25,970 nucleotides of DNA from a virus. Both the position numbers and the translations under genes were made by a program. Below are positions 7 through 25,970 of this stretch, in pieces (the first letter of the stretch is position 1; each line of letters begins with the position of its first letter). The stretch spans positions 1-25,970 of the IMG/VR virus record IMGVR_UViG_3300006080_000011, one strand, 5' to 3'. The notes under the pieces were generated by a model that did no database searches, had not been told where the DNA came from, and saw only the letters and a program-made list of their open reading frames with translations.

Positions 7-321
7 ATGAAAATGAATGATAAAGAGACGTTAGAGCTTCTGAATCTAATTGGTAAAGAAGCCATCAATATTAAAAAGGATTTTAAATCTATAGATGATC
101 CATTGCAGCCATTAACGGCTATGGGAGTTGACTCTTTAGACTTTATTACTGTGTTTATTTACATCGGGGATATCTTTGGTATATCTGATGAAGAATTTAA
201 TACACATCCTAATATAACTCCAAGTACACCTAGGCCTCTCTTAATTGAAGACTTAATTGTATGCATTAACGATACAGCCACTCTTCACCCTACTCTGGAA
301 GAAGCCATTGAACAAATCTAA
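7..321 (+). CDS. Acyl carrier protein (ACP)
   Basis: A 104-aa acidic protein with the ACP signature GVDSLDFI at residues 40-47. Ser43 is the expected 4'-phosphopantetheine attachment site of the DSL motif. ACPs carry growing or finished acyl chains as thioesters for ketosynthases and acyl-modifying enzymes in the cytoplasm. Length is slightly above the usual 75-90 aa, with a C-terminal extension. ATG at 7 is used; an in-frame ATG at 13 is an alternative, and only six bases of upstream sequence are visible, so the RBS cannot be judged. A diiron protein and a FabF-like condensing enzyme follow directly on the same strand. This suggests a dedicated ACP for that pair rather than a copy of the host housekeeping acpP; that role is inference. 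Confidence 0.85.
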   Translation: MKMNDKETLELLNLIGKEAINIKKDFKSIDDPLQPLTAMGVDSLDFITVFIYIGDIFGISDEEFNTHPNITPSTPRPLLIEDLIVCINDTATLHPTLEEAIEQI

Positions 322-352
322 CAACCTTAACACTATAGTTAAATGGGCTGAT

Positions 353-1198
353 ATGTCTGATAAGCTTAGATGGAAATCTGACGGATATAACATATCATGG
401 TACGTTGACTTAGAAGAATCTGATATAGAAATTATTAAAAGATTGCAGAGATTAGGGGATGGGGAATACTCTGGTTTGGGATCTACTATATTATTATATG
501 ATATGATACTTCATGACATACCTAAAGAATATCAATCAGGATTTTCAGAGATTATAATGTATTCACATATTATAGCATATGAAGAGATGAGGCATGGTAT
601 TGCAGTTAGTAATTTATACGAAGCTGTATCCAATAACAATCCAAACTATCTAGATACTGTTAGTGTACAAGAGATTAGTGATAAGTTTATATTCGGATTT
701 GAAGATAATGTATATTGGGATGCTTATGGTTTATTGATATCTCATTGCTTATCCGAAGTACCTAACTGTGTATTATATAAAGATGTATTATCTCAAGCTA
801 AACATCCTAAGTTAAAATCACTCATTAAAAATATATTAAGAGATGAGATTAGGCATAAATTAGCATTAACAGAGATTGTATTAAACTTAGTTAACTTAAG
901 TGAATATCATAAACAAAGATGTTTAGATTCACTAGAGTCTGGTTTAAATCACCATAACGCATTACAACATGGAAGGTACTTCGAAGGTATTAATGACATG
1001 GCTTATTTGTTTAATAAAGGTGCTTCCGAAGTGATAGTAAAGGATAAGTTTAATATCATTCAGAAGTGGTTTGGCGAAGACAATCCTTATACATATCGTG
1101 ATCTTATTATTAAACACTTAAAATTTACACAATTATCTAAAGGTAAAGTCAAGAGTAAAGCCTGTCCAGAGGAGCAATTAGGATTCTGTTTTGAATAA
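353..1198 (+). CDS. Ferritin-like diiron protein, acyl-ACP-desaturase-like
   Basis: A 281-aa mostly helical protein from ATG 353; the open frame extends upstream to 257, but that part only overlaps the ACP gene. Two diiron motifs are visible: EEMRH (E78, H81) and DEIRH (E165, H168). Candidate remaining ligands are E38 and E135. The E38-E78-E135-E165 spacing (40, 57, 30) is close to that of the plant stearoyl-ACP desaturase ligand set (38, 53, 33). The motifs also resemble the EENRHG and DEKRH stretches of that family. AurF-type N-oxygenases have an extra His four residues before the last Glu; here that position is Ile. Flanked by ACP and ketosynthase genes, it probably oxidises or desaturates an ACP-bound acyl chain. 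The diiron fold is well supported; the exact reaction is not. Confidence 0.68.
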   Translation: MSDKLRWKSDGYNISWYVDLEESDIEIIKRLQRLGDGEYSGLGSTILLYDMILHDIPKEYQSGFSEIIMYSHIIAYEEMRHGIAVSNLYEAVSNNNPNYLDTVSVQEISDKFIFGFEDNVYWDAYGLLISHCLSEVPNCVLYKDVLSQAKHPKLKSLIKNILRDEIRHKLALTEIVLNLVNLSEYHKQRCLDSLESGLNHHNALQHGRYFEGINDMAYLFNKGASEVIVKDKFNIIQKWFGEDNPYTYRDLIIKHLKFTQLSKGKVKSKACPEEQLGFCFE

Positions 1199-2183
1199 AG
1201 TATACATTACCCAACATAAAGAATTATCATCATCTAACCTTAAATTAGTTGATTACATACACTCACCTACATATTATCATTCAGTATTATCAGACAATGA
1301 TTTAAAGGCTGTTAATAGAGGTATTAAGAATAAAGTACAAGTTCTCCTTGATAAACTATTCGAAGATGCTCAGTTTGAATTAAATGATGAGGGTAATGGA
1401 GTTATATTTGCTGCAGGTAATACGAATGCTGCTGGTACATTAACATACCTTACTAAGGGAAGACCCGATGATTATCCAGAAGCAAGAAACGTTGCATTGT
1501 CTGTATCAAATGTATTAGCCGGTTATAGTGTTAATAAACTAGGAAGATTCGAATATATGACTACAGATGCTACAGCTTGTATTTCATCGGCTTCGGCTTT
1601 AACACAAGGTTATAATCTTATTAAGAGTGGTCAATTAAAGAAGGTATTAATCATAGCATGTGAAGATGGTTCATCAATTGATCTATTAGAGTTCTTTGCA
1701 AAATACAAAGTTAGTAATACAGTATTAGAAGATAGAGGTTCATTTTACCTCGGTGAAGGTGCTTCATATATATTATTAGAAGATCAAGATACTACTAATG
1801 TTATTACAGCAGAAGTATTATCAGCTATTACGTATCACGAGCATTATTCCAATCCCTTAGGTATATCGGAATCAGGTGAGGGATATAAAACTATAATTAA
1901 GAGATCATTAAGTAATGCTAATGTAAAGCCTAACTTAATTGATTACATTAAGAAACATGATACAGGTACTCCAGACAATGAAATAGAATCAACTATAATT
2001 AATGATGTGTTTGGTGATATTAATACATTAAGCTATAAGAAAGAAATAGGACACACCTTAGGATCTAACGCCACTATTGAAATGATTAAAGCATTACATG
2101 GTACAGAATCACAAACAACCACTTTACATATAGCTGCAGGAATGGGTAATGTATTTTCTGGTATAATTACCAAGAACATATAA
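1191..2183 (+). CDS. FabF/FabB-like beta-ketoacyl-ACP synthase
   Basis: A 330-aa thiolase-fold condensing enzyme. Cys130 in DATACISSASAL matches the KAS I/II nucleophile region. DRGSFYLGEGA (181-191) matches the conserved DRDGFVLGDGA-type motif. His256 in KKHDTGTPDNE matches the first catalytic His (AHGTSTP in FabF). Lys283 and His288 in YKKEIGH match the Lys and second His. The Cys-His-His arrangement marks it as KAS I/II rather than FabH, which uses Cys-His-Asn. It would catalyse decarboxylative condensation of malonyl-ACP with an acyl chain. It is shorter than typical FabF (about 410 aa), mainly at the N-terminus. The start is TTG 1191, overlapping the upstream stop, with AGGA at 1180-1183 seven bases away. 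Coupling to the diiron gene is likely. Confidence 0.8.
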   Translation: MNKVYITQHKELSSSNLKLVDYIHSPTYYHSVLSDNDLKAVNRGIKNKVQVLLDKLFEDAQFELNDEGNGVIFAAGNTNAAGTLTYLTKGRPDDYPEARNVALSVSNVLAGYSVNKLGRFEYMTTDATACISSASALTQGYNLIKSGQLKKVLIIACEDGSSIDLLEFFAKYKVSNTVLEDRGSFYLGEGASYILLEDQDTTNVITAEVLSAITYHEHYSNPLGISESGEGYKTIIKRSLSNANVKPNLIDYIKKHDTGTPDNEIESTIINDVFGDINTLSYKKEIGHTLGSNATIEMIKALHGTESQTTTLHIAAGMGNVFSGIITKNI

Positions 2184-2253
2184 TAAGTATTCTACCTTCC
2201 GCATAACATAATTATATTATACCCTATTTTGACCACAATGGCAACCGTATTTT

Positions 2254-2261
2254 TATAAATA
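2254..2261 (+). promoter_or_regulatory. T4-type late promoter TATAAATA
   Basis: Exact match to the T4 late promoter -10 octamer, read by the phage sigma gp55 in T4. It lies in the 83-base gap after the ketosynthase gene. In T4 the octamer spans -13 to -6, so the predicted +1 is base 2267, exactly the A of the next ATG. Confidence 0.75.
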
Positions 2262-2266
2262 AAAAT

Positions 2267-2659
2267 ATGAGACATTTTATCTTATTACTAATAATACCAT
2301 TATTAGCGTCGTGTTCTAGTATTATGGGCAAGAACCTAATTAAAACTGGAGCGACTACTGCAGTGACGTACGCCGTCGCAGGACCACTACCAGCCATTAT
2401 AAACTTAGGCACATCTATAGCAGTGGATGAAATACTCCCTGAAGAAGGCCCTAAGATAGAAGATATTAAAAGTAACAAGCAATTAGTGGCTTATATATGG
2501 TCTGAATTCAAAACCATGATATTATACGGTGCTATAATATTCTTTGCCTTTACAACGGTTATAACACCATGGGCAGTACAAAGAAGAGCTCGAAGAAAAC
2601 GAAAGTATGATCAATACAAATATGAAGCTCAATTAGCAAGGGAGAAGAACGATGTATGA
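2267..2659 (+). CDS. Small membrane lipoprotein of unknown function
   Basis: A 130-aa protein with a lipoprotein-type signal peptide: positively charged start, hydrophobic stretch, then the lipobox-like LLASC with Cys16 as the candidate lipidation site. A second hydrophobic helix at about residues 86-106 is followed by a very basic stretch (RRARRKRK). A lipid anchor at one end and a TM plus basic cytosolic tail at the other would be compatible with an envelope-spanning protein, but I recognise no family. The start coincides with the predicted +1 of the late promoter just upstream, so the message may be leaderless. The gene overlaps the DUF1353 gene by eight bases, suggesting translational coupling. 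Confidence 0.7.
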   Translation: MRHFILLLIIPLLASCSSIMGKNLIKTGATTAVTYAVAGPLPAIINLGTSIAVDEILPEEGPKIEDIKSNKQLVAYIWSEFKTMILYGAIIFFAFTTVITPWAVQRRARRKRKYDQYKYEAQLAREKNDV

Positions 2660-3242
2660 TTTAGCTATTCAATTCTGGCAATTTACTATAGTGGGTATAT
2701 TAATACTCATAAGCTATATTACAGTATTAGTCTCATCAGAAAGTCATGATGATGATGATTATCTAACATTTAAATCTAAGGGCATGCCATGCATGAAACC
2801 TATTCCTATTCTAACTAAGGATAAGGGATTTTTCGGTGGCATTTGGGTTTGGCTAATGGTCACTCGTAAATGGGAGATTACAAAGGATTTTCATTACTCT
2901 ATTAACAATCAAGATTTAATTGTACCCAAAGGATTCGTATTCGATGGTGCTTCTGTGCCTAAGTTCTTTAGGAGTTGGTTAAGCCCCATGGGAGTTTTAT
3001 TGATAGGTGGGTTAGTGCATGACTATGGTTATAAGTATCAAACGTTATTAAGGAAGGGTAAGAAGACCTGTTACGGTCTTAAGAGACAAAGGGCAATGGA
3101 TGTTATATTTAGAGATATTAACATCCAGGTTAATGGATTCAAGATGATTAATTATTTGGCATACTATGCCTTACGATTAGGCGGATTTTTAGCATGGAAG
3201 GGACACAGGAAGCGTGGCTTAGATTGGAAGAGTTCGTTTTGA
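2652..3242 (+). CDS. DUF1353-family protein with N-terminal TM helix
   Basis: A 196-aa protein. Residues 9-29 form a hydrophobic helix followed by an acidic cluster (HDDDD). The rest carries DUF1353 hallmarks: VPKGFVFDGASVPKFFRS at about 92-109 and a GGLVHDYGYK stretch at about 118-127. DUF1353 proteins are small conserved proteins of phages, prophages and gene transfer agents with no firmly established activity. The Asp/His pattern suggests a metal or catalytic site, but that is speculation. The start ATG 2652 overlaps the preceding stop. The added N-terminal TM helix implies membrane anchoring, which fits its neighbours (lipoprotein, exported protease-like protein, MscS-like protein). Confidence 0.75.
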   Translation: MYDLAIQFWQFTIVGILILISYITVLVSSESHDDDDYLTFKSKGMPCMKPIPILTKDKGFFGGIWVWLMVTRKWEITKDFHYSINNQDLIVPKGFVFDGASVPKFFRSWLSPMGVLLIGGLVHDYGYKYQTLLRKGKKTCYGLKRQRAMDVIFRDINIQVNGFKMINYLAYYALRLGGFLAWKGHRKRGLDWKSSF

Positions 3243-3256
3243 CTGGGGCAACTATA

Positions 3257-3316
3257 ATGATTACTGTAGTATTTTTCATAGCGGTATTGACGTTAATAAT
3301 AGACGGTGTTTCATAG
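3257..3316 (+). CDS. Doubtful 19-aa hydrophobic peptide ORF
   Basis: ATG at 3257 opens a frame encoding a nearly all-hydrophobic peptide (core VVFFIAVLTLII) ending at TAG 3314-3316. A TTG at 3239, overlapping the stop of the DUF1353 gene, would give 25 aa. It could be a single-pass membrane microprotein. No clear RBS is seen, and AT-rich DNA readily makes such ORFs by chance. The 3243-3460 gap is otherwise without a recognisable gene, tRNA or exact late promoter. Confidence 0.22.
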   Translation: MITVVFFIAVLTLIIDGVS

Positions 3317-3392
3317 TCTCATACACTGTGTAGCCGAAAAAAAATGTTTTGAATCCTGGACGTGGCGTAAATGCTGTATCCTTGTTTATATT

Positions 3393-3464
3393 ATGGTTTG
3401 GATTATCGGCATGCCGTTACTTTTGATTGGCATTGCACTACTAATAACGGAGATTAATACATGA
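3393..3464 (+). CDS. Doubtful 23-aa membrane peptide ORF
   Basis: ATG 3393 encodes a 23-residue peptide with the hydrophobic core IIGMPLLLIGIALLI. Its TGA overlaps the ATG of the next gene as ATGA (3461-3464), the coupling geometry used between real genes elsewhere in this window. The same frame extends up to a GTG at 3306, giving about 52 aa with a Cys-rich basic N-terminal half. Neither start has a convincing RBS. It is listed because the overlap and hydrophobicity are suggestive, not because function is known. Confidence 0.28.
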   Translation: MVWIIGMPLLLIGIALLITEINT

Positions 3465-4261
3465 AACAATATTTAATAGCACTACTCGCAACATTACTTA
3501 CACTTAACACATACGCATTAGATGACTTTGACTTATACAAGTATGGTGATACAGAGCTCAATATAGAACGACAAAACTTTATTGTAAAGCTTATCTTATT
3601 TAAGGATGATGAGGAGTTAACTAAAGAATATTCTAAAGTTACTGGTACACCAATTGAAGAAGCTAATGTCAGGGCATTTACTTCAGTATCTGCAACAAAC
3701 GATGTGTGTTTCATTAATATCGTAGCCCCTAAGATATGGGATGATAGAGAAGCATTAACCATTATAGGGCATGAGTTAATGCATTGTGGATTAGCATCTC
3801 ATCAAGACGCGGCAGCCGAGATAGCCGAAAGAGAAAAAGAATGGGAAGATGAGCAAAAGAATAAAGCAGCACTTAATAATGAGTTACAATCTGTTGAAGA
3901 TTTGTATGCTGAAGATAGAAAGTTAGAATTAGAATGGCTTAAAGAAGATTATGAAAAGATGGGTATTGTAATTGATGAAGACCCCACAACAGTTCAGCCA
4001 GCATCTCATGCATGCAATGTAAAGGATGTAGTAGTTGAAAAGGATGTAATTGATACTGCAGTTAATGTAGGTCTTATCACAAAAGAAGAAGCAATACAAC
4101 TTAGAAAGGATATTGCTGATGGAAAGAAAGATGTTATTGATGTCAATTCAGATGAAGGTATTATATCATTCGGGACTATAACGTATGACATAGATGATTT
4201 AGAGCCTGACCCAGAAGAAGGTGAGTATATAGATGGCGAATGGTACGATGCTTACCATTGA
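3461..4261 (+). CDS. Exported HExxH metallopeptidase-like protein
   Basis: A 266-aa protein with an apparent signal peptide (residues 1-19, cleavage plausible after NTYA), so periplasmic or secreted. The zinc motif HELMH is at residues 104-108, and a further His at 114 gives HExxHxxxxxH. This spacing equals that of metzincins, although the Gly is one place early. Two short-range Cys (C83, C109) flank the site. The C-terminal half is charged and acidic, with a coiled-coil-like Glu/Lys-rich stretch at about 117-170 and an acidic tail. It could cut envelope proteins during lysis or exclusion, but no named family is recognised. CGGAG at 3448-3452 supports ATG 3461. The 3' end overlaps the MscS-like gene by 29 bases. 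Confidence 0.6.
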   Translation: MKQYLIALLATLLTLNTYALDDFDLYKYGDTELNIERQNFIVKLILFKDDEELTKEYSKVTGTPIEEANVRAFTSVSATNDVCFINIVAPKIWDDREALTIIGHELMHCGLASHQDAAAEIAEREKEWEDEQKNKAALNNELQSVEDLYAEDRKLELEWLKEDYEKMGIVIDEDPTTVQPASHACNVKDVVVEKDVIDTAVNVGLITKEEAIQLRKDIADGKKDVIDVNSDEGIISFGTITYDIDDLEPDPEEGEYIDGEWYDAYH

Positions 4262-4577
4262 AAAATTCGGGTTGAATTTAGCTGACCTAATAACACCTTT
4301 CTTTACAATGATGGCTGGAATAGTCATCGTATTTTGGATCAAAGATTTCGCAGGTAATATAGCACAAGGTTTAAGTTTTAAATACTTTGGTCCCTTTAAA
4401 GAAGGTGATCATGTAATGCTTGATAACCATAGGGCAGTCATTGTTAAGATAGGATTATCAGTTACAGTATTCGGTTGTGATGATCCAGAGCGTGGATATA
4501 TATGGAGATATGTGCCAAATGACCGGATTGACACTCTAAAACTCGGAAAAATCATTTCAAGCTCAAAGAAACTATAA
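4233..4577 (+). CDS. Miniature MscS-like mechanosensitive channel protein
   Basis: A 114-aa protein with one TM helix (about residues 14-37), then a segment typical of the end of MscS TM3 and its Sm-like beta domain: KDFAGNIAQGLSF, then GPFKEGDHVML (53-63) and a VPNDRI element (94-99) corresponding to the IPN motif of MscS. MscS channels release osmolytes under membrane tension. Here the first two TM helices and the C-terminal alpha/beta domain are absent, so this is the pore-lining helix plus beta domain only. It might form a small pore, act as a dominant partner of host MscS, or contribute to lysis; all of these are inference. ATG 4233 is chosen because of GAAGGTGAG upstream; ATG 4248 is an alternative. 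Confidence 0.62.
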   Translation: MANGTMLTIEKFGLNLADLITPFFTMMAGIVIVFWIKDFAGNIAQGLSFKYFGPFKEGDHVMLDNHRAVIVKIGLSVTVFGCDDPERGYIWRYVPNDRIDTLKLGKIISSSKKL

Positions 4578-4580
4578 ATA
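4573..4580 (+). promoter_or_regulatory. T4-type late promoter TATAAATA
   Basis: Exact late octamer overlapping the stop codon of the MscS-like gene, 38 bases before the next ATG. Predicted +1 is about 4586. It probably starts transcription of the coiled-coil TM gene and the downstream internal-protein and PAAR genes. Confidence 0.75.
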
Positions 4581-4610
4581 ATAGTAGTTATATATAACTT
4601 ATAGGATGTT

Positions 4611-5003
4611 ATGGAAAATAGGGTTAATTCTTTAGAAACTGATTTAGAGTTGCTAAAGAAGGATATGTCTGCATGTCAAGCTAGTATTAGGCAGGATATC
4701 AATCACTTGAGAGAAACAAGAGCAGAATTACCAGGTTGGTTAAAGAATTCAGCCGTGGGTATTATTCTTGCTATCTTTTCCCAAACAATTGCTTCTGTAT
4801 GGTGGGCATCACAAATATCTGCTGGACAAAATAATATGAGTATGCAAGTAGAAGCAAATACTCAATTTAGACTTAGTTGGCCTGAGAAGCATAATGAAGT
4901 TATGATAAAACTTACAGAGATATCAATTGATGCTAAAAACATGAAAGAGATGCTTCACGAGATTAAAACCAAACAGGGCGGCCACACCGATCCAACCAAT
5001 TAA
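4611..5003 (+). CDS. Coiled-coil single-TM protein, holin/XhlA-like topology
   Basis: A 130-aa protein. Residues 1-36 are a charged amphipathic heptad-like helix, and residues about 47-68 form one hydrophobic TM helix (VGIILAIFSQTIASVWW). A soluble helical tail follows. The layout (N-terminal coiled coil, short TM) is like haemolysin XhlA-type and some holin-associated proteins, which support phage exit. Topology is visible; homology is not proven. ATG 4611 has AGGATG just upstream and lies under the late promoter at 4573. With the preceding lipoprotein, protease-like and channel-like genes it could belong to a lysis or envelope cassette. Confidence 0.55.
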   Translation: MENRVNSLETDLELLKKDMSACQASIRQDINHLRETRAELPGWLKNSAVGIILAIFSQTIASVWWASQISAGQNNMSMQVEANTQFRLSWPEKHNEVMIKLTEISIDAKNMKEMLHEIKTKQGGHTDPTN

Positions 5004-5018
5004 CAAGGACAAATAATA

Positions 5019-5918
5019 ATGAAATCATTATCCCAAATTAGACAATCAGTTATCACAGAAGCCTCCGGCGGCAAAGAAGCTTATCAGAAATTTTTTAATA
5101 GTATGTTAAAGAAGTTTGGTGTTAAATCAGCTGCTGAATTAGAAGGTGATAAGAAGAAAGAATTCTTCGATGCTATTGACGCCGGTTGGGAAGGTGATAA
5201 TGAAGAGCCTGAGCCTGGAGATAAGAAAGAATCTGTTGACGAGAATTGTGGTGCTGATCACTCTGGTAAAGGTGTCTGTCCTGAATGTGGTAAGCAATTA
5301 TCTGAAGGTAAATTAGATGGTATTGCCAAAGCATTAACATCCATGGCTGGTAAGCCTGAATATAAAAAGGTTGCAAAAAACCTTAAGTCATTGGCTATGA
5401 GAGCTTCAGAAGGTGATAAGAAAGCCGCTAAACAAATTGCAACTCAATTAGATAAACTAATTATGAAAGTAGATAAGAAATCTGCTGCAAAATTAATGAA
5501 GCTTGCTGACCTTACTCTTACATACGAAGATGTAGAAGAGGGATTAGTAAAGGGCCGTGGATTTCCAGGTATTAAAGCTGATAAGAAGAAAAAGAAGAAT
5601 AAACGAGTTCATGGTGCTAATAAAAATATAGCGTATGACTACGATAGAGATAAACGTAAAGAAGACGTAGAAGAAGCTGTTTCTGTTGATATGAGAACCA
5701 GAGGTTTTAAATCAGCTGTGAAGAGAAATCTATTACGTAAAGAGAAGGCAACAGCTAAAAAGAAATCAGAGATTGATGAAATCATTGATGCAACCAATAA
5801 GAAGTTGAGGGGTGAATCTATGGTAGCTTCTGGTTCTGATGCAACTGGTGATGTAGCTGGTAAAGATATGCCATTACTTAAAAAGAAAAAGGTATTAAAA
5901 AAGTTTAAAGATGCTTAA
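5019..5918 (+). CDS. Lysine-rich candidate internal head protein with zinc-ribbon motif
   Basis: A 299-aa, very Lys-rich protein. The N-terminus MKSLSQIRQSVITEAS resembles capsid-targeting propeptides of T4 internal proteins (MKTYQEFIAEA). An ITE/A site at residue 14 fits the (L/I)xE cleavage rule of the gp21 prohead protease. Later features are an acidic stretch (about 58-73), a CX8-11 plus CPEC zinc-ribbon-like segment (about 77-90), helical repeats, and a strongly basic C-terminus. Basic proteins with such leaders are packed in T4-like heads and can be injected with the DNA. That role is inferred. ATG 5019 follows AAGGA. The last eight bases overlap the next gene. Confidence 0.62.
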   Translation: MKSLSQIRQSVITEASGGKEAYQKFFNSMLKKFGVKSAAELEGDKKKEFFDAIDAGWEGDNEEPEPGDKKESVDENCGADHSGKGVCPECGKQLSEGKLDGIAKALTSMAGKPEYKKVAKNLKSLAMRASEGDKKAAKQIATQLDKLIMKVDKKSAAKLMKLADLTLTYEDVEEGLVKGRGFPGIKADKKKKKNKRVHGANKNIAYDYDRDKRKEDVEEAVSVDMRTRGFKSAVKRNLLRKEKATAKKKSEIDEIIDATNKKLRGESMVASGSDATGDVAGKDMPLLKKKKVLKKFKDA

Positions 5919-6171
5919 ATTTAAAGACATAAGAGAAGCCTCTGCAGAGACAAAGGCAAGAATGAAGCGTGAACTCGACAAGGGTTATGCTGCACAACTT
6001 AAACTGAAATTGAAGAATGCTACGGATTCTCTTAAAGAGTTAGCATTTGATCTAGATAATAAAGTACAAACAATAGATCCTAAAATTTCTAAAGAGCTTA
6101 AAGCGAAACATAAAGAGCTTAAGAAATTCATTAAGACTTTTAACGACGCGATAAAAGCTCACATTAAGTAA
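5911..6171 (+). CDS. Small basic candidate internal head protein
   Basis: An 86-aa Lys-rich helical protein beginning MLKFKDIREAS. The KDIRE segment is shared with the proteins at 20625 and 20849, beside the portal and prohead genes. IRE/A fits the gp21 prohead-protease rule, so this looks like a capsid-targeted internal protein; the cleaved product would be highly basic and suited to packing with DNA. It starts inside the last codons of the upstream gene (eight-base overlap), which suggests coupling. No enzymatic motif is seen. Confidence 0.6.
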   Translation: MLKFKDIREASAETKARMKRELDKGYAAQLKLKLKNATDSLKELAFDLDNKVQTIDPKISKELKAKHKELKKFIKTFNDAIKAHIK

Positions 6172-6177
6172 CTCCCT

Positions 6178-8823
6178 ATGCCAGCCGCTGCTAGAGACGG
6201 TGATAATGTAACACTAGAACACGTTTGTCAAAGCACAACTATGACAGATGGTGGATCAACAAATGTATTCATTGAAGGTATTGGGGCCCACCGACAAACA
6301 ACTGACAAAGTATTATTTCATTTAGATGATAGTGATGCACCTATATGTGCAGCTACTCATAGTCCAACATTAGTTACTGCATCCCCTAACGTATACGTTA
6401 ATGGCAAACCATTAGGTCGTGTTACAGACTCATATGGATGTGGCTATATAACTGACGGTGCATCAAACGTATTTGTTAATGATGCATACACACCAACAGC
6501 TCCCGATAATCTAACAAATACATACGCATCAGTAGAACAAATTGATGAGGCTTTAGAAGCCTTATTACTAGCAGCTACTGGAATAAGTGCCAGTCAACCG
6601 AAATCAAGTGAACTTACACGTACAGCTACTGCAGAGTTTGTATATAAATCAAATGATGTCAGAATATCGGCTAACTGGGCTAGAGTAGCAGCAGAAGGTG
6701 ATGCCCTTGATTGGACTACATATCAACTAATACTTGGCGATGACACTGATTTTATAAAGACTCGTTATGTTAATGGTGATAAAAGAATAGTAAAATTATA
6801 TAGAGGTATAGGTGGTGTATTCCAAGGGGAGGGTTTCGGCCCTACGAGTACTAACATTGGTATAAAATATCTAACACCAGATCTATCATATGCTTCCTCG
6901 TGGATGAAGCAAGACTTTTCGAGGTGGACATATCATTCTATTGCAGACGGTGGGCAGGGGGCTCCAGCTAATGCAAGCGCGGCACGACTACAACGATATG
7001 CTGAAATGATAGACGGAGCTGGAGCCAAATTAAATCCATCTTACTTAGAAGAATACGCAGTATCATTTAATAAGAATGAAGTGATGGACTTAAATATTAC
7101 CCAAGACGCCACCTTGGATAAGGTTAAAGCTGCTTCTAGGTTTGGAGGTGATGATGTGTTGTTTGAGAAACTTAAAAAAGATACTAACTTCCGTATTGAC
7201 TTCTATGCTGATTGGGAGAATAAAACTTTTCAGGATTGGGCTAAGTCGGCAGGATATAAGGCCTTAGTTGGATATGATCCAAGTGCTAGTCAGGTTGTAG
7301 GAGTATTCCAATCTTTAAAAGATGTACCTGATTCTGAATACATAAGATTGCTTGCTTCAACTGATCCAGCAGACCATTGGTGGAAAAATTCAACTGGTAC
7401 AGCTAAGGTATTACCCCTTCCTAAAAAGGCTCCAATACCTAAATTCTATGTTATAGGTGAGAAGACAGGCATCCCGATAGACGCATACTCTAGGACGAGT
7501 GATGGTATGTTAGTGGGAGACACCCTTAAAAATGTTCCTCGTGATTGGATTGTGACTTATGAAACGTTAGCAACTAAAGCTGATGTAGCCCTACTCATCG
7601 ATCAAGAGGTAGTTAGTGGGAAAGCATACTTACACCTTTCTTTGGATAGCCATTATTCATTTGATAAGCCATCCACATTTACTGTTGTACAGATCCAGAC
7701 CGCTGAAGGCATTAGCACCTTTAAAGGTTTAGGACCAAATGAAGGATATAGATTATTGGAAACTGCATTTAGAAGTAGATTCTTTGCAGGGTTGACTGTA
7801 TTTGAAACAGACTCATTAACAGTACAAGGGTCTAGATTATACAGTAGGCTTATGCGTAATATAGCACTTACATTTAAAAGACATCCAGATTCATTAAAGC
7901 GTTATCCTATGCTTAGTAATCCTGAGTTTAAGATGCCTATTATGGAGTTAAGTAGTCAAGGGGTAGTGCAGGCTAAACCCCATATCCTAATAGCAGGAAG
8001 TGCTTATCCAACGGGGGGCTATATGAAGATGACAGATTTCTTAGATTACATCTTCAAGTATGGCAGTCCGTTTGAAGACGGTATCAATATATCTAAGAAA
8101 AGCTATTTGATAACTGCTCATTGGGCCCTCAGTGACACCACAGAGGAGTTTTATAGGAAGGGTACGGGTAAGTTTATTATTGGAACAAACGAGCAGCTAG
8201 CTAAGTACTTGCATAAGGCCCCTAATGTATTTGATTCTAGAATTGCTATACTCAAAGCTAAGGTTCCTGAAGCCCCCTCTTGGTTCTTTGATAGTCTTGA
8301 AGTAAATGTTAATAATAAGGCTGGTACGGTTCGTGAGGTATTTGAGGTATCAGCACTACATCCTATACATGGGAAGATTATGGCCACATTAAGATTTATA
8401 GGTAATGTAGCTCTCTTTCTTTTTGCACCATATATATACGATACAATTGAGGCACGGGGTGGTATAATCAAACATATTAAAGAATATGTAAATGATACTA
8501 TAGCGCTTTACGATGCACGAATTGATCGTATGGGAGACTACGATATAACAGGATTACGTAATATTAATTATGATCACCTTTCATTAGAGCAGCTTACCCT
8601 TATGAATAACTCAATAGATGCGGAGCAAAAGAAACTACTAGATCTAGGACTTGTGCAGTCTGGTGAACAATTAGAGAGAACACTGAATATTATATTTGAC
8701 ATCCCGTTATACTTCTTAGGAATGGGAATGATGTGGTATGCTGATGAATTAGATAGAAAGCTTGAGTCTATACATAAGAGCAATGAACTTACAAAGGAAT
8801 GGTTCTTTGAACTATTTGAATAA
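6178..8823 (+). CDS. PAAR-tip protein with ADP-ribosyltransferase-like domain
   Basis: An 881-aa protein. Residues 1-105 are a PAAR-type domain: PAAARDGD start, repeated short beta elements with Gly and His/Cys (VTLEHVC, ICAATHS, GCGYITDGASNVFVND). PAAR proteins cap the spike trimer of contractile injection machines (gp5.4 in T4). Residues about 195-380 resemble ADP-ribosyltransferase folds: LYRGIGG (207-213), KYLTPDLSYASSW (230-242), EEYAVSFNKNEVMDLN (291-306) and AKSAGYKALVGYDPSASQVVGVF (355-377). The usual final Glu position appears to be Gln, so activity is uncertain. The remaining about 500 aa are unrecognised, with hydrophobic helices near 738-762 and 839-858. The layout resembles T6SS evolved PAAR effectors. 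ATG 6178 lacks a good RBS. Confidence 0.65.
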   Translation: MPAAARDGDNVTLEHVCQSTTMTDGGSTNVFIEGIGAHRQTTDKVLFHLDDSDAPICAATHSPTLVTASPNVYVNGKPLGRVTDSYGCGYITDGASNVFVNDAYTPTAPDNLTNTYASVEQIDEALEALLLAATGISASQPKSSELTRTATAEFVYKSNDVRISANWARVAAEGDALDWTTYQLILGDDTDFIKTRYVNGDKRIVKLYRGIGGVFQGEGFGPTSTNIGIKYLTPDLSYASSWMKQDFSRWTYHSIADGGQGAPANASAARLQRYAEMIDGAGAKLNPSYLEEYAVSFNKNEVMDLNITQDATLDKVKAASRFGGDDVLFEKLKKDTNFRIDFYADWENKTFQDWAKSAGYKALVGYDPSASQVVGVFQSLKDVPDSEYIRLLASTDPADHWWKNSTGTAKVLPLPKKAPIPKFYVIGEKTGIPIDAYSRTSDGMLVGDTLKNVPRDWIVTYETLATKADVALLIDQEVVSGKAYLHLSLDSHYSFDKPSTFTVVQIQTAEGISTFKGLGPNEGYRLLETAFRSRFFAGLTVFETDSLTVQGSRLYSRLMRNIALTFKRHPDSLKRYPMLSNPEFKMPIMELSSQGVVQAKPHILIAGSAYPTGGYMKMTDFLDYIFKYGSPFEDGINISKKSYLITAHWALSDTTEEFYRKGTGKFIIGTNEQLAKYLHKAPNVFDSRIAILKAKVPEAPSWFFDSLEVNVNNKAGTVREVFEVSALHPIHGKIMATLRFIGNVALFLFAPYIYDTIEARGGIIKHIKEYVNDTIALYDARIDRMGDYDITGLRNINYDHLSLEQLTLMNNSIDAEQKKLLDLGLVQSGEQLERTLNIIFDIPLYFLGMGMMWYADELDRKLESIHKSNELTKEWFFELFE

Positions 8824-8825
8824 TT

Positions 8826-10049
8826 ATGATAGGGCAATACAAACGAACTCTTACCTGTAAACTCATTAATGACCGTAATCAGACAGAGTTAAAATTAAAG
8901 CATACAAATCTTGGTGTGGGTGACACATTAGGTAGTGAAACTATTGAAGCTATTAATATAACATATGATAGGCTCTTAAATACCCACTCAAATTTAGATC
9001 ACTTGAACTTTCCATATTATGCATTTAAAGCTAATATGTTGTGGTGGGTTGATGCAACTATTGGCATGGAAAGTAGATGGGTAAAAACTGCTAAGAATGG
9101 TGCTATTAGTAGTACAGCTTATGGTTGGGGTCAGATCACTAAGGACACAACCATAACTGCTTGTAATAGGTATGTTACTTTAGTCAATAGTTGTAATAAG
9201 ACTTCATTTCATCGAAGTTGGTCTCCTTCCAATGAAAATGACATCATGATATTAGGGTTTTTAGAAGTAGCAAGAGAAGAAGATGTACATCCTGAAGATT
9301 TAATTGCTGGCGTTGCAGTCTCTGGCGGAGCTGTATATAAGCTAATGCAAAGGGCTTCTGTATGGTATAATAAAGGAGCTACACCTGCAGAGAAACTCAT
9401 GACCTGGAAAGAGTTAATAAAGAATGATTGGAAGCAAGTCACACGGACAGATAAAGCTTTTGCCGAGGGTGCTAAAGGCATTAAAGGATGGCGGTTTTGG
9501 AAAGCGTTTATGTGGGGAAAGGCTGGATCACTTAAAGGTCAGTTTAAGACCGGACCAACTCCGTTATTCAGAAGATTAGGCTCCGCGTTAAGATTTATGT
9601 TAGGAAAAATATCAGGTGTGTTGCTGTTATTAGACAGTAAGTCATTGAATACTGGTGAGCCTGGTTTAGATGAGTGGATGGCACTACAAGAGCTGAATAA
9701 AATAATTAGATATGTACCAGCCTTCATTACTAAGATAATATCCAACCCTGCTACCGATTTTGCTAGTCATAAGAAGATACTAGATTCACTATCATACGAT
9801 GAGATAGGTGCGTTAATAATAGCTAATGCAGAAGGAGCATCCGGTACAGATGCTAATGGTTGGATACATATGACGTCTAACGATATTGATATACTACGAG
9901 ATGGTGCTAAAGGATTATACGAATATGGCCACCATAGTAAATTTAGTTCTACTACACCAGATCTAGCACAAATCCTTATCAACTTGGATGTTTTCTTTGA
10001 CTGTCCACAGTCAACAGCTAAATCTCTTAAGGCAGGTATAAGGCCTTAG
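8826..10049 (+). CDS. Tail-associated lytic transglycosylase/lysozyme-like protein
   Basis: A 407-aa protein with an SLT/goose-lysozyme-like core: the candidate catalytic Glu82 in GMESRW, then AYGWGQIT at residues 98-105, matching the ES...A.G..Q pattern of soluble lytic transglycosylases. Such enzymes cut the glycan strands of peptidoglycan. A hydrophobic segment at about 256-275 and an unrecognised C-terminal domain follow. It starts two bases after the PAAR-protein stop and has no signal peptide. It is therefore more likely a virion-borne wall-opening enzyme acting with the PAAR tip than a lysis endolysin. In T4 this activity sits in gp5; no gp5 is visible here. Confidence 0.65.
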   Translation: MIGQYKRTLTCKLINDRNQTELKLKHTNLGVGDTLGSETIEAINITYDRLLNTHSNLDHLNFPYYAFKANMLWWVDATIGMESRWVKTAKNGAISSTAYGWGQITKDTTITACNRYVTLVNSCNKTSFHRSWSPSNENDIMILGFLEVAREEDVHPEDLIAGVAVSGGAVYKLMQRASVWYNKGATPAEKLMTWKELIKNDWKQVTRTDKAFAEGAKGIKGWRFWKAFMWGKAGSLKGQFKTGPTPLFRRLGSALRFMLGKISGVLLLLDSKSLNTGEPGLDEWMALQELNKIIRYVPAFITKIISNPATDFASHKKILDSLSYDEIGALIIANAEGASGTDANGWIHMTSNDIDILRDGAKGLYEYGHHSKFSSTTPDLAQILINLDVFFDCPQSTAKSLKAGIRP

Positions 10050-10065
10050 TTTACTTCTTAAATCA

Positions 10066-10073
10066 TATAAATA
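10066..10073 (+). promoter_or_regulatory. T4-type late promoter TATAAATA
   Basis: Exact late octamer 30 bases before the gp13 ATG, with AAGGA (10086-10090) between them. It heads the neck-terminase operon 13-14-15-16-17. Confidence 0.8.
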
Positions 10074-10095
10074 AGTCTATACAATAAGGACAATT

Positions 10096-10908
10096 ATGGC
10101 AAAAGTAACCAACAGACCCCAGTTAATAGATCATGCAATGAGAGCATTGGGTGCTCCTGTAATTGAAATCAATGTAGATGAAGATCAAGTAGAAGATCGT
10201 ATTGATGATGCATTACAATATTATCAAGAGTATCATACTGATGCGGTTATACGAGTCTATTATAAGCATCAACTTACTGCTACAGACATTACAAATAGTT
10301 ATATTACCATACCTGATGGAATTACAAGTATAACTAGAATACTTGACTTTGGATCAGGCCTGGCAGAGAAGTTCTTTGATGTTGAGTATAATATGAGATT
10401 ACAAGACATGTATATGTTTAATGTTGGATCTCGTGGATTACAATTATACGAACAAAGAGTACAAAACCTTGCTTTATTAGATTACACATTTGGTTCAACA
10501 GAATTACTTAGATTTAATCGTCATATGAATAGACTTCATATTGATGAAGGGTTTGGCGATCTATTTCCATCATCATGTTCTGATGTAACATATACAGATA
10601 AGACTACATGTGAAGCTGCAAGTGAAACGTGGACTGAAGGTCAGTATATAGTTATTGAAGGATATGAGATTGTAGACCCTACTACATACGGCGATGTTTA
10701 TAATGACATGTTCTTAAAGAGATACGTTACGGCATTGATTAAACGTCAATGGGGTGCTAACATGATTAAGTTTGAAGGTATGCAATTGCCTGGTGGAGTT
10801 ACAATGAACGGCAGACAAATCTATGATGATGCCGTAGAAGAGGTTACTAAATTAGAAGACGAAATGCAGTTAGCCTGGATGGAACCAGATAACTTCTTAA
10901 TGGGATAA
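10096..10908 (+). CDS. 13: Head completion/neck protein gp13
   Basis: A 270-aa T4 gp13-like neck protein. It has the conserved N-terminal layout (PQLIDHAMRALGAPVIEINV, then DRIDDALQYYQEYH) and C-terminal KRYVTALIKRQWGANMIKFEGMQLPGG in two parts. gp13 joins the filled head at the portal vertex and, with gp14, receives the tail. The gene lies immediately before gp14 and gp15 apart from one inserted gene. An odd feature is a short Cys-containing insert at about residues 158-181 (C161, C172, W179), described separately. The late promoter and RBS upstream are clear. Confidence 0.88.
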   Translation: MAKVTNRPQLIDHAMRALGAPVIEINVDEDQVEDRIDDALQYYQEYHTDAVIRVYYKHQLTATDITNSYITIPDGITSITRILDFGSGLAEKFFDVEYNMRLQDMYMFNVGSRGLQLYEQRVQNLALLDYTFGSTELLRFNRHMNRLHIDEGFGDLFPSSCSDVTYTDKTTCEAASETWTEGQYIVIEGYEIVDPTTYGDVYNDMFLKRYVTALIKRQWGANMIKFEGMQLPGGVTMNGRQIYDDAVEEVTKLEDEMQLAWMEPDNFLMG

Positions 10909-12749: not shown

Positions 12750-13673
12750 ATGGCAACTTCAGTATACTTTTCAGGAAGCGTAAAATCAGAACAGAATCTT
12801 TATGAGGATTTAATCATAGAGTCTATGCAGATGCATGGGCAAGATATTGTTTATATTCCCAGGGAAGAGATATCTCATGATGAGTTATTAAATGAATCAT
12901 ATTCTAAATTCACGGATTCATACGTCGTAGAGATGTATATTGAGAATCAAGAGGGATTCGAAGGTGATGGTGATTTATTAGCTAAGTTTGGTTTAGAGAT
13001 TAGAGATCAAGCTACATTTATTGTGGCTAAACGTCGTTGGGAGAAGCAGGTAGGTAAATGGGCTAATACAATAAGACCTAATGAAGGTGACTTATTATTC
13101 TTACCTATGTCTAATTCATTATTTGAGATTAAGTTTGTAGAGCATGAAATGCCGTTCTATCAATTGCAGAATCTTCCTGTATATAAATTACAAGCTGAAT
13201 TATTCGAATACTCTGATGAGGAATTAGATACATCTATTGATGCAATTGATAAGATTGAAACACTTAATGCTACATCATACACATATACATTAGATTCAGG
13301 TTCTGGTACAGCTGATGATTACCGAATTGGTGAAACAGTGATTCAATGGACTGGTGTAAACGATGCAGTAGGTGATCCAATTAATATTGAAGGTGAAGTC
13401 GCTGCTTGGGAAGATACTGGACTTAATATAGGAATCTTGACTGTGGTAAGTCATGTTACTACCGATGGTAAGTTTAGAAAGTTCTTCGCTGATGTCGATC
13501 CATTGTTAACCATTGTGGGTACAGAAAGTGGTGCAGTATATTCTGTAGTAGTTGCTGATTCACCACTCTATACAAACTTTAATAGAGATACATATGCTAA
13601 TAACGAAGCCTTTGAAGCAGCTGCTGATGATATCATAGACTTCTCTGAAAATAATCCATTTGGTATGCCATAA
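12750..13673 (+). CDS. 14: Neck protein gp14
   Basis: A 307-aa T4 gp14-like protein beginning MATSVYFSGSVKSEQNLYED, with the family pattern GQDIVYIPRE and the GDLLFLPMSNSLFEIKFVEH block in the middle. gp14 completes the head neck and docks the tail with gp13. The frame is open from TTG 12732, but ATG 12750 gives the conserved N-terminus. The protein is longer than T4 gp14 (256 aa), the extra length lying in a C-terminal acidic beta-rich part. Its stop TAA shares a base with the gp15 ATG. Confidence 0.86.
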   Translation: MATSVYFSGSVKSEQNLYEDLIIESMQMHGQDIVYIPREEISHDELLNESYSKFTDSYVVEMYIENQEGFEGDGDLLAKFGLEIRDQATFIVAKRRWEKQVGKWANTIRPNEGDLLFLPMSNSLFEIKFVEHEMPFYQLQNLPVYKLQAELFEYSDEELDTSIDAIDKIETLNATSYTYTLDSGSGTADDYRIGETVIQWTGVNDAVGDPINIEGEVAAWEDTGLNIGILTVVSHVTTDGKFRKFFADVDPLLTIVGTESGAVYSVVVADSPLYTNFNRDTYANNEAFEAAADDIIDFSENNPFGMP

Positions 13674-14414: not shown

Positions 14415-14756
14415 ATGAGTGATATAGATGATGATTATAATAACATAAGAAAATCATTATACGATTTAGTTGGTCAAGGTGATGAAGCTATTGAGTTAAT
14501 GATGGAACTTGCACGTGAGAGTGAACACCCTAGAGCATTCGAAGTACTAGGACAACTAATCAAACAAAATGCAGAGATTGGTGAGAAGATCATGAAGCTG
14601 CAAAAATCAAAGAAAGAAGTTGCCGTTATGGATGGTAAGAAATCCCTATCTAGTGCTGTAACTAATAATAATGTATTCATTGGGTCCACTACTGATTTAC
14701 AAAGACTACTACAAGATGAGAAAGTGATTGAACATGGCGATACAGAGACCGGATAG
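14415..14756 (+). CDS. 16: Small terminase subunit gp16
   Basis: A 113-aa, largely helical protein between gp15 and gp17, the place of T4 gene 16. It has an acidic N-terminus, a helix around ELMMELARESEHPRAFEVLG and a helical KQNAEIGEKIMKLQKSKKE segment, both typical of T4-like small terminases. The small terminase forms a ring that recognises or regulates DNA entry into the packaging motor. It is shorter than T4 gp16 (164 aa), as in marine T4-like phages. The 3' end overlaps gp17 by 23 bases. Confidence 0.82.
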   Translation: MSDIDDDYNNIRKSLYDLVGQGDEAIELMMELARESEHPRAFEVLGQLIKQNAEIGEKIMKLQKSKKEVAVMDGKKSLSSAVTNNNVFIGSTTDLQRLLQDEKVIEHGDTETG

Positions 14757-16308
14757 TTATTTAGGAAATGCCAATGTAAAGCGAGATGGTGTTTCTCAAG
14801 ATTGGACAAAAGAAGATGTTATTGAATACAAGAAGTGTATGGATGACATTGGATACTTCTGTCGCACATACATTAAGATTATACTCTTAGATAAAGGATT
14901 AGTCTCATTTGACTTATATCCATATCAAGAAACAATGATGACTAACTTCCACGACAATAGATTTAATATTGTATTGGCATGTAGACAATCTGGTAAATCA
15001 ATCAGCACATGTGCATATCTTCTATGGTATGTTCTATTCCAACCTGAAAAGACTGTAGCTGTATTAGCTAATAAGGGATCAACAGCTCGTGAGATGCTAG
15101 CTCGTATTACTCTGATGTTAGAGAATCTTCCGTTCTTTCTCCAGCCTGGTTGTAAGGCATTAAACAAAGGTTCGATTGAGTTCTCAAACAACTCAAGGAT
15201 TATTGCTGCTGCAACATCTGGTTCATCTATTCGTGGTATGTCTATTAACCTATTGTATCTTGATGAGTTTGCATTTGTAGAGAATGCTGCTGAGTTCTAT
15301 ACAAGTACATACCCTGTAGTATCTTCTGGTAAAACAACTAAAGTTATTATTACTTCTACTGCTAACGGCGTTGGAAATATATTTCATAAGTTATGGGAAG
15401 GTGCCCAACAAAAGTCAAATGAGTTTGTTTCATTTAGAGTAGATTGGTGGGATGTTCCTGGTAGAGATGATAAGTGGAAAGCCCAGACAGTTGCTAACAC
15501 AAGTGAGTTACAATTTCAACAAGAGTTTGGTAATACATTCCATGGTACGGGTAATACTCTTATATCGGCAGATACTCTATTAGGATTAAGGGCTCAAGAT
15601 CCAATTGCATATATGCATAATGTAAGCATATATAAAGATCCAGTTGACGACCATGACTATGTAATGTTAGTGGATGTATCTCGTGGTAGGGGGCAAGACT
15701 ATTCAACTTTTACTATTATTGATGCATCAACAAAACCCTTACAACAAGTAGCGGTATTCAGAGACAATATGATGAGTCCATTATTGTTCCCTGATTTAAT
15801 CTATAAGTATGCTGATGCATACAATAAGGCATATGTCGTAGTTGAGAGTAATGACGCTGGTCAAGTAGTGTGTAATGGATTATACTATGATTTAGAATAT
15901 GAGAATGTATATGTAGAATCACTGGTTAAAGCTAATGCTATTGGTGTTACAATGACAAGGAAGACTAAGAGAATTGGATGTTCTAATATCAAGGATATTA
16001 TAGAACAGAATAAGCTAGAGATTGTAGATCAAGAAACTATTATTGAAATGTCTACATTTGTTGCTAAGGGTAAATCATATCAGGCTTCGGCTACTAATCA
16101 TGATGACTTAATGATGAACTTAGTTATGTTTGGGTGGTTCTCAACAACTATGTTCTTTAAAGAGATATCAGATATAGACATGAAGAGTATGTTATACTCA
16201 GAGAAGATTAGACAAATAGAAGATGACTTATTGCCATTTGGCATAATAAACGATAATACTGATTTAAATCAGCCTGAAATACCACAATGGGAGGTATGGA
16301 AAGGCTGA
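14734..16308 (+). CDS. 17: Large terminase (packaging ATPase-nuclease) gp17
   Basis: A 524-aa motor protein. ATPase domain: Walker A-type CRQSGKS at residues 83-89, Walker B LLYLDE at 173-178, and a coupling-like TSTANG motif at 208-212. Nuclease domain: acidic residues D314 (LVDVSRG), E371 (VVVES) and D458 (NHDDLM), matching the D-E-D RNase H-like triad of T4 gp17. It pumps DNA into the prohead through the portal and cuts concatemers. ATG 14734 is preferred over the in-frame TTG at 14728. T4 gp17 is longer (610 aa), mostly at the termini. Confidence 0.95.
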   Translation: MAIQRPDSYLGNANVKRDGVSQDWTKEDVIEYKKCMDDIGYFCRTYIKIILLDKGLVSFDLYPYQETMMTNFHDNRFNIVLACRQSGKSISTCAYLLWYVLFQPEKTVAVLANKGSTAREMLARITLMLENLPFFLQPGCKALNKGSIEFSNNSRIIAAATSGSSIRGMSINLLYLDEFAFVENAAEFYTSTYPVVSSGKTTKVIITSTANGVGNIFHKLWEGAQQKSNEFVSFRVDWWDVPGRDDKWKAQTVANTSELQFQQEFGNTFHGTGNTLISADTLLGLRAQDPIAYMHNVSIYKDPVDDHDYVMLVDVSRGRGQDYSTFTIIDASTKPLQQVAVFRDNMMSPLLFPDLIYKYADAYNKAYVVVESNDAGQVVCNGLYYDLEYENVYVESLVKANAIGVTMTRKTKRIGCSNIKDIIEQNKLEIVDQETIIEMSTFVAKGKSYQASATNHDDLMMNLVMFGWFSTTMFFKEISDIDMKSMLYSEKIRQIEDDLLPFGIINDNTDLNQPEIPQWEVWKG

Positions 16309-24963: not shown

Positions 24964-25970
24964 ATGGCAATAGATTTATTGAAGCAGATGGCAAATAGAG
25001 ATACTGAAGAGAACACTAAACCTGGAGCATTGTATAATACTCCTAACCTTGATGAATTAGAGAATGGCCCTTGGCCATCATTTGTTACAGGTCTTAAGCG
25101 TTTAGCTAATGATACTCACGAAGGTGCTAAAATGGCACGTGACGTACTTGGTACACTTGAAACATCATACGTAACTAAAGTAGGTTACTGGAAAGGTGGC
25201 ACCGTTGGTGTTATCGGTTATGGTGGTGGTGTTATTCCACGTTTCAACGAATTAAAGAATGAAGACGGTTCATACAAGTTTCCTGATGCTTCTGAATTCC
25301 ATACATTAAGAATCCAACCCCCTGCAGGAATGCATTATACATCTACTCTATTAAGAGACATGTGTGATATGTTTGTTGATAACGGTGGTTCTGGTTTAAT
25401 CGCATTCCATGGTCAATCAGGTGACATTATGTTACAAGGTTCTACTGAAGAAAGCACACAAAAGATTTTCAATACATTCAATGATTATGGATTTGATATG
25501 GGTGGTGCTGGTCCTGCAGTAAGAACTGGCATGTCTTGTGTTGGTGCTTCTCGTTGTGAAATGAGTAACGTTAATGAGCAGGCAGTTCTAAGAACTCTTG
25601 TTAATGCATTCCTAGATGATATGCATCGTCCAGCATTACCATACAAAATGAAGTTCAAAGTTTCGGGTTGTGCAAACGACTGTATGAACTCAATTGGTCG
25701 AAGTGACTTTGCTACTATTGGTACTTGGCGTGATGATATTAAAATCAATCAAGAAATGTGGAAGGCAATGGTTGATGATAAAGGTACTAAGTATGTACAC
25801 GATAATATCATTTCACGTTGTCCTACAGATGCGTTGCATTTAGAAGAGGATAACTCAATAGCAATTGATAATAAGAATTGCGTTAAGTGTATGCACTGCT
25901 TAAATGCGGTTTCACCTATGGTACATAATTACATTAAACCAGGGGAGAAGGAACAATATATTCTTGCTCC
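24964..25970 (+). CDS. dsrA: Reverse dissimilatory sulfite reductase alpha subunit DsrA, 3' end beyond window
   Basis: The first 335 residues of DsrA (Allochromatium DsrA is about 417 aa); the frame is open at the window edge. The cysteines binding the [4Fe-4S]-siroheme centre are seen at C192 and C198 (GMSCVGASRCEM) and C236 and C240 (VSGCANDC). The inserted ferredoxin domain has C286 (SRCPTDA) and C306, C309, C312 (NCVKCMHC). These motifs match oxidative-type DsrA of sulfur oxidisers. With DsrB it forms the cytoplasmic enzyme that, in sulfur oxidisers, releases sulfite from sulfur carried by DsrC. It is intact as far as visible. Phage rdsrA is known from viruses of SUP05 bacteria; dsrB and dsrC are not in view. 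Confidence 0.94.
   Translation, partial: MAIDLLKQMANRDTEENTKPGALYNTPNLDELENGPWPSFVTGLKRLANDTHEGAKMARDVLGTLETSYVTKVGYWKGGTVGVIGYGGGVIPRFNELKNEDGSYKFPDASEFHTLRIQPPAGMHYTSTLLRDMCDMFVDNGGSGLIAFHGQSGDIMLQGSTEESTQKIFNTFNDYGFDMGGAGPAVRTGMSCVGASRCEMSNVNEQAVLRTLVNAFLDDMHRPALPYKMKFKVSGCANDCMNSIGRSDFATIGTWRDDIKINQEMWKAMVDDKGTKYVHDNIISRCPTDALHLEEDNSIAIDNKNCVKCMHCLNAVSPMVHNYIKPGEKEQYILA

Follow-up and report, generated by a model that had tools for sequence, protein, structure and literature searches.

A phage gene trio for an acyl carrier protein, a ferritin-like di-iron protein and a divergent ketosynthase as a candidate acyl-ACP module

The left end of a linear virus contig of 25,970 bases (the whole stretch of DNA analysed, hereafter the window) carries three plus-strand genes encoding an acyl carrier protein (ACP), a ferritin-like di-iron protein and a beta-ketoacyl synthase superfamily protein (KS). 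On balance, we favour the reading that the trio functions as a unit, acting on a chain that the phage-encoded ACP carries. Because the same trio was found in a biosynthetic cluster of a Sulfurovum metagenome-assembled genome (MAG), and because the ACP–KS pair is conserved, the three genes are regarded as a recurring functional set and not as a chance juxtaposition.

Products of the three genes

The first-pass annotation described an adjacent or overlapping module of a carrier protein, a desaturase-like di-iron protein and a FabF-like condensing enzyme at positions 7–2183. The arrangement was borne out: the three reading frames are intact, with complete active-site residues, and the start of the KS gene overlaps the stop of the di-iron gene by 8 nt (Table 1). 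Profile searches gave a mixed result, since all three matches are weak and those to PF00550 and PF03405 are sub-threshold, but the KS matched PF02801 at 48.7 bits (E = 9e-13).

Table 1. Coordinates of features in the window and in related loci
Feature	Location	Strand	Details
Acyl carrier protein, 104 aa	7..321	+	Phosphopantetheine Ser43 in DSLD
Ferritin-like di-iron protein, 281 aa	353..1198	+	Likely start ATG 353; frame open from 257
Beta-ketoacyl synthase superfamily protein, 330 aa	1191..2183	+	TTG start; Cys130-His256-His288 with Lys283
T4-type late promoter-like box TATAAATA	2254..2261	+	Before next gene (2267); downstream of and outside the trio
All TATAAATA boxes	2254, 4573, 10066, 16313, 18629, 20178, 24275, 24910	+	
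Mechanosensitive-channel beta-domain match, 114 aa	4233-4577		PF00924
PAAR-motif protein, 881 aa	6178-8823		N-terminal PAAR motif
Terminase	14728-16308		In T4-like late gene block
DsrA-type sulfite reductase alpha subunit	24964-25968		Cut by contig end
Sulfurovum MAG locus, JALSPX010000176.1 (L166)	179-10100		Di-iron 179-1003, ACP 1027-1293, KS 1309-2433
Campylobacterales contig (L167)	2-6135		Begins inside KS; chromosomal further along
Small protein downstream of the phage pair (L001)	13100-13540		Homologues about 145–160 aa in most
Divergent ACP–KS pair (L173)	7496-8597		107-kb phage contig

The carrier protein retains the serine ascribed to it, in an intact D42-S43-L44-D45 motif. Its match to PF00550 (17.9 bits, E = 0.0037) lies under the cut-off of 20.8. 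Against a profile of 79 phage ACPs, in which the D, the S and the second D of the DS-x-D motif are invariant, it scored 45.6 bits (E = 2.5e-12), and it aligns with the ACPs of Sulfurovum and ctpbd312.

The middle protein contains the motifs EExxH (77–81) and DExxH (164–168) and six putative di-iron ligands (E38, E78, H81, E135, E165 and H168), all of which are kept in the Sulfurovum homologue (30% identity; pairwise E = 2e-34). An AlphaFold model from the single sequence was unusable (pLDDT 36), and a two-sequence model was used (pLDDT 68, pTM 0.71, all-helical). Structure prediction could have shown a different fold; with the six ligands intact, the modelled protein is a ferritin-like di-iron bundle, in keeping with the desaturase-like di-iron protein proposed earlier. 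The best Foldseek matches (E 0.03–0.05) were aldehyde-deformylating-oxygenase-type proteins, one of them on top at E 0.034, acyl-ACP desaturases, PaaA and VlmB. In VIA-align, 2uw1, an acyl-ACP desaturase, ranked first (Z 13.7, 236 residues, 4.5 Å), tied with PaaC (13.6), aldehyde-deformylating oxygenase (13.3), sMMO (13.2) and VlmB (12.3). Since helical bundles easily reach such Z values, the fold alone indicates a di-iron ferritin-like protein and no more.

Two further features tilt the protein towards acyl-ACP desaturases. Its ligand spacing is 40/57/30 (E38–E78, E78–E135, E135–E165), compared with 38/53/33 in the castor acyl-ACP desaturase and 28/55/29 in aldehyde-deformylating oxygenase. 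In addition, PF03405 was weakly matched over the same stretch (108–212) by the window protein (17.3 bits, E = 0.0023) and by its Sulfurovum homologue (17.6 bits), both under the gathering cut-off of 22.7. We suggest that the protein is probably an ACP-acting desaturase or oxygenase, predicted to oxidise the carried chain. An AurF/VlmB-type N-oxygenase was rejected as the leading reading. AurF has an extra His ligand (H223) four residues before its last ExxH, and this position, mapped by motif correspondence only, is occupied by Ile in both the window and the Sulfurovum proteins.

The KS can be described as a condensing enzyme with intact catalytic residues (C130, H256, K283 and H288), as proposed. 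In an alignment of 152 members of the family, both His residues (H256 and H288) and K283 never vary, and 150 retain C130. The label "FabF-like" holds at the superfamily level (Cys-His-His and Lys) but not at the level of FabF itself, the NCBIfam fabF score being 73.4 bits against a cut-off of 493.75. The C-terminal motif is GMGN, which replaces GFGGTN with the gatekeeper Phe of FabF/KAS II; it occurs in the window KS and nearly all family members, with its glycines and asparagine invariant in the aligned rows. The KS matches the phrog_35856 profile over its full length (E = 8e-48; residues 4–328 of 330, profile positions 1–332 of 334), and the TTG start region is backed by the aligned N-terminus of the Sulfurovum homologue, MNKIAIT. 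The window KS is without two segments present in its relatives (about 12 and 24 residues). Given these absent segments and its long branch in the KS tree, its activity could be altered. FabF-like stretches also occur in several unannotated records labelled as phages of Listeria, Enterococcus or Staphylococcus or as gut "phage"; these resemble contaminating host DNA, and the matches, probably ordinary host FabF, were left out.

Relatives in environmental phages and bacteria

Two IMG/VR scans yielded 205 and 168 KS relatives in overlapping sets, and 80 were kept from each. In total, 151 KS loci were examined, two of them bacterial (the phage loci include L004–L083 and L176–L246); they group into 48 clusters at 80% identity. 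An ACP gene adjoins the KS gene in 148 loci, directly upstream and usually overlapping; in 78 of these, the last 4 nt of the ACP gene are shared with the KS gene as called. The three loci without an adjacent typical ACP comprise two at contig ends (L046 and L167) and one divergent pair (L173). In a Manatee Spring siphovirus (MW202545.1), a KS of the same type is likewise preceded immediately by an ACP gene, annotated as hypothetical, which overlaps it by 4 nt. The ACP–KS pair is conserved and widespread in environmental phages. PHROGs enters both members as "unknown function" (KS phrog_35856, ACP phrog_28189), and phrog_28189 is matched by the ACPs that accompany this KS in Sulfurovum and in further phages.

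The pair lies in a virion-gene region in most representative loci and beside helicase-like genes in some. The same small protein is encoded directly 3′ of the pair in 27 of the 35 representative phage loci; its identification as a GNAT was rejected for want of Pfam or PHROG support. A link to defence systems was rejected, as PADLOC returned no match. The L173 pair, an ACP-like protein (82 aa, MDSFS) with a short KS (288 aa) beside virion-type genes, is very divergent and forms a separate lineage.

A search of viral databases for the same trio had been proposed. The pair does recur there, but the di-iron gene was found in no other phage: tblastn with the window protein found nothing in phages, and with its Sulfurovum homologue nothing in phages or plasmids; peptide-pattern scans of IMG/VR and of genome contigs, one of them with all residues outside the two metal motifs masked with X, were negative. 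None of the other phage KS loci examined, the 80 first loci included, has the di-iron gene as a neighbour. Among bacteria, the di-iron protein turned up once in 397 Campylobacterota genomes and once in 175 Sulfurovaceae genomes, in both cases in the Sulfurovum MAG itself, and the KS in two of the 397.

One scan of genome contigs for the KS returned only two bacterial loci. In the Sulfurovum MAG, homologous di-iron, ACP and KS genes are adjacent, as in the window, but in the order di-iron–ACP–KS, and they are followed by genes for an MBL-fold hydrolase, FabG, an FMN-reductase/SCP2 protein and a KS-AT-ACP polyketide synthase. In the Campylobacterales contig, the KS is followed by an MBL hydrolase, an FMN reductase, a YbgC-type thioesterase, FabF, another FMN reductase and FabG. 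By gene content, both appear to be rare PKS-like biosynthetic clusters. The solanimycin cluster, to which a weak match between the MBL hydrolase and SolJ had pointed, was discarded as a template, its two papers describing no di-iron enzyme. In the KS tree, the window KS groups with the KSs of these two loci (96/98) on a long branch; because the branches of the window and the outgroups are very long, this grouping is supporting evidence only.

It had been considered that the adjacency might be an unrelated, non-conserved juxtaposition. This did not survive the comparison, given the recurrence of the trio in Sulfurovum and the near-constant ACP–KS adjacency, and the functional linkage of the three genes gained support from the same protein types being adjacent in the bacterium and from the pair being kept in phages.

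Proposed acyl-ACP chemistry and alternative readings

The three proteins together could, according to the first-pass annotation, elongate and oxidise or desaturate an ACP-bound chain. Doing so would depend on enzymes of the host or on genes lost upstream, since no ketoreductase, dehydratase, enoyl reductase, malonyl transferase (AT) or phosphopantetheinyl transferase was recognised within the window; the contig breaks off at base 1, so whatever preceded the trio is missing. Malonyl loading, keto reduction and release must come from one of these sources.

Based on the above, we suggest the following pathway. The ACP would be primed by host AcpS. The KS would then take an acyl group from a host acyl-ACP and condense it with malonyl on the ACP, and the di-iron protein, supplied with electrons from a host reductant, would desaturate or otherwise oxidise the acyl-ACP using O2. 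The cycle could be closed by host FabG/FabZ/FabI or by missing upstream phage genes, with host FabD also leaned on. The trio would thus branch off type II fatty acid/polyketide synthesis as a dedicated side route, and the infected cell would gain an acyl product that its host does not make, either in membrane lipids or as a small lipid-like product. By analogy with the bacterial relative, a polyketide-like product is as plausible as a change in membrane lipids.

It is possible, although we hold it to be considerably less probable, that the di-iron protein is a non-desaturase oxygenase (a hydroxylase, an aldehyde-deformylating or decarboxylating oxygenase, or an N-oxygenase, acting on the ACP or on a substrate) serving to tailor a polyketide-like product in the manner of the bacterial cluster. 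The tie of desaturases with PaaC, aldehyde-deformylating oxygenase, sMMO and VlmB in VIA-align, the top Foldseek match with its E of only 0.034 and the position of the bacterial homologue in a PKS-like cluster are consistent with this. On the other hand, the ligand spacing is nearer to that of the castor desaturase than to that of aldehyde-deformylating oxygenase, both homologues match the same PF03405 stretch weakly but repeatedly, and an N-oxygenase is disfavoured by the missing AurF-type His four residues before E165.

We consider it unlikely that the KS is non-elongating and, together with the ACP, loads, transfers or decarboxylates acyl groups, with the di-iron protein modifying the loaded group; such a system might, for example, acylate a protein or small molecule, or drain host acyl-ACP. 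The GMGN motif, the two absent segments, the lack of reductive enzymes in the window and the same small protein following the pair in a virion-gene region in 27 of the 35 representative loci would fit. However, the Cys, both His and the Lys, the set for decarboxylative condensation, are nearly invariant, and the KSs of the bacterial relatives sit with FabG.

A broader proposal, which we hold to be rather unlikely, is that environmental phages share a dedicated, non-host acyl-ACP system, of which the window phage has an oxidised-chain version. The ACP and the divergent KS, whose genes mostly lie within the block of late virion genes, might make or attach an acyl group needed for infection; an injected or virion protein or a host molecule could conceivably be its target. 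The oxidised-chain version would owe its character to the di-iron enzyme, which the window phage would have in common with the polyketide-type cluster of Sulfurovum.

Phage context and comparison with known systems

The window, which comes from a marine phage, contains a T4-like late gene block (terminase, portal, prohead protease and capsid), and its nearest named relative based on the terminase is Phage C48C1 (67%). That the first 2.2 kb form a chimeric end of the contig, or are carried along without a function, is very improbable: the trio does lie at the extreme end of a linear fragment, its KS has no homologue in the 30 T4-like relatives searched, most of them fragments, and its GC content is lower (31% vs about 36%), but three intact, overlapping frames with complete active sites share one strand, their codon usage is close to that of the other window genes (distance 0.083; null 5–95% 0.067–0.12) and unlike that of the Sulfurovum trio (0.171), and related ACP–KS pairs sit within long phage contigs.

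All eight TATAAATA boxes are on the plus strand, each 6–62 nt ahead of a gene start. Their count does not exceed chance expectation (21 of 100 shuffles), so that it is their placement, not their number, that suggests T4-type late promoters. Because one box comes just after the trio, the trio is probably the end of an operon with its promoter before base 1.

Other genes of the window deserve mention. The DsrA-type gene (PF01077, E = 1.9e-16), with a TATAAATA box 47 nt upstream, points by analogy to a sulfur-oxidising host; known sulfur phages provide a parallel (PMC8190135). The long C-terminal part of the PAAR-motif protein is without a Pfam match, and the protein is possible baseplate-spike cargo. 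The mechanosensitive-channel beta-domain match (22.0 bits; cut-off 20.2) is unusual for a phage late region.

Phage ACPs, fabF-type auxiliary genes and a prophage fabG-acpP-fabF set are already reported. The latter, found in Rhodobacteraceae prophages and interpreted as fatty-acid auxiliary genes (PMC8224337), shares with the window a phage-borne ACP and ketosynthase, but it includes FabG and follows the E. coli gene order, whereas the window has no FabG, its KS is distant from FabF and a di-iron gene separates the ACP and KS genes. Stand-alone phage ACPs of unclear function (PMC5463345) are phage-encoded as well, but no ketosynthase or di-iron partner is described for them. The phrog_35856/phrog_28189 entries include the same KS family, but were not recognised as a carrier-protein/ketosynthase pair and have no di-iron partner. 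A functional analogy is offered by petroselinate synthesis in coriander (PMC10669383), where a soluble acyl-ACP desaturase works with a seed ACP and a specialised ketoacyl-ACP synthase: an ACP-bound chain undergoes di-iron desaturation and then condensation, and ligand motifs and the general di-iron fold are similar. The window protein, a putative desaturase, differs in scoring below the Pfam cut-off and in its phage context. In agreement with the first-pass annotation, which knew of no phage pathway with this exact trio, no description of the trio, or of the KS family as a carrier-linked pair, was found in open-access full text.

If active, the trio would mean that the phage imports its own carrier-bound acyl chemistry instead of strengthening a step that the host already has, and its tie to the bacterial cluster offers a concrete route to the product. 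With at least 48 phage lineages carrying a conserved ACP–KS pair listed under unknown function, the question becomes which acyl product these phages need.
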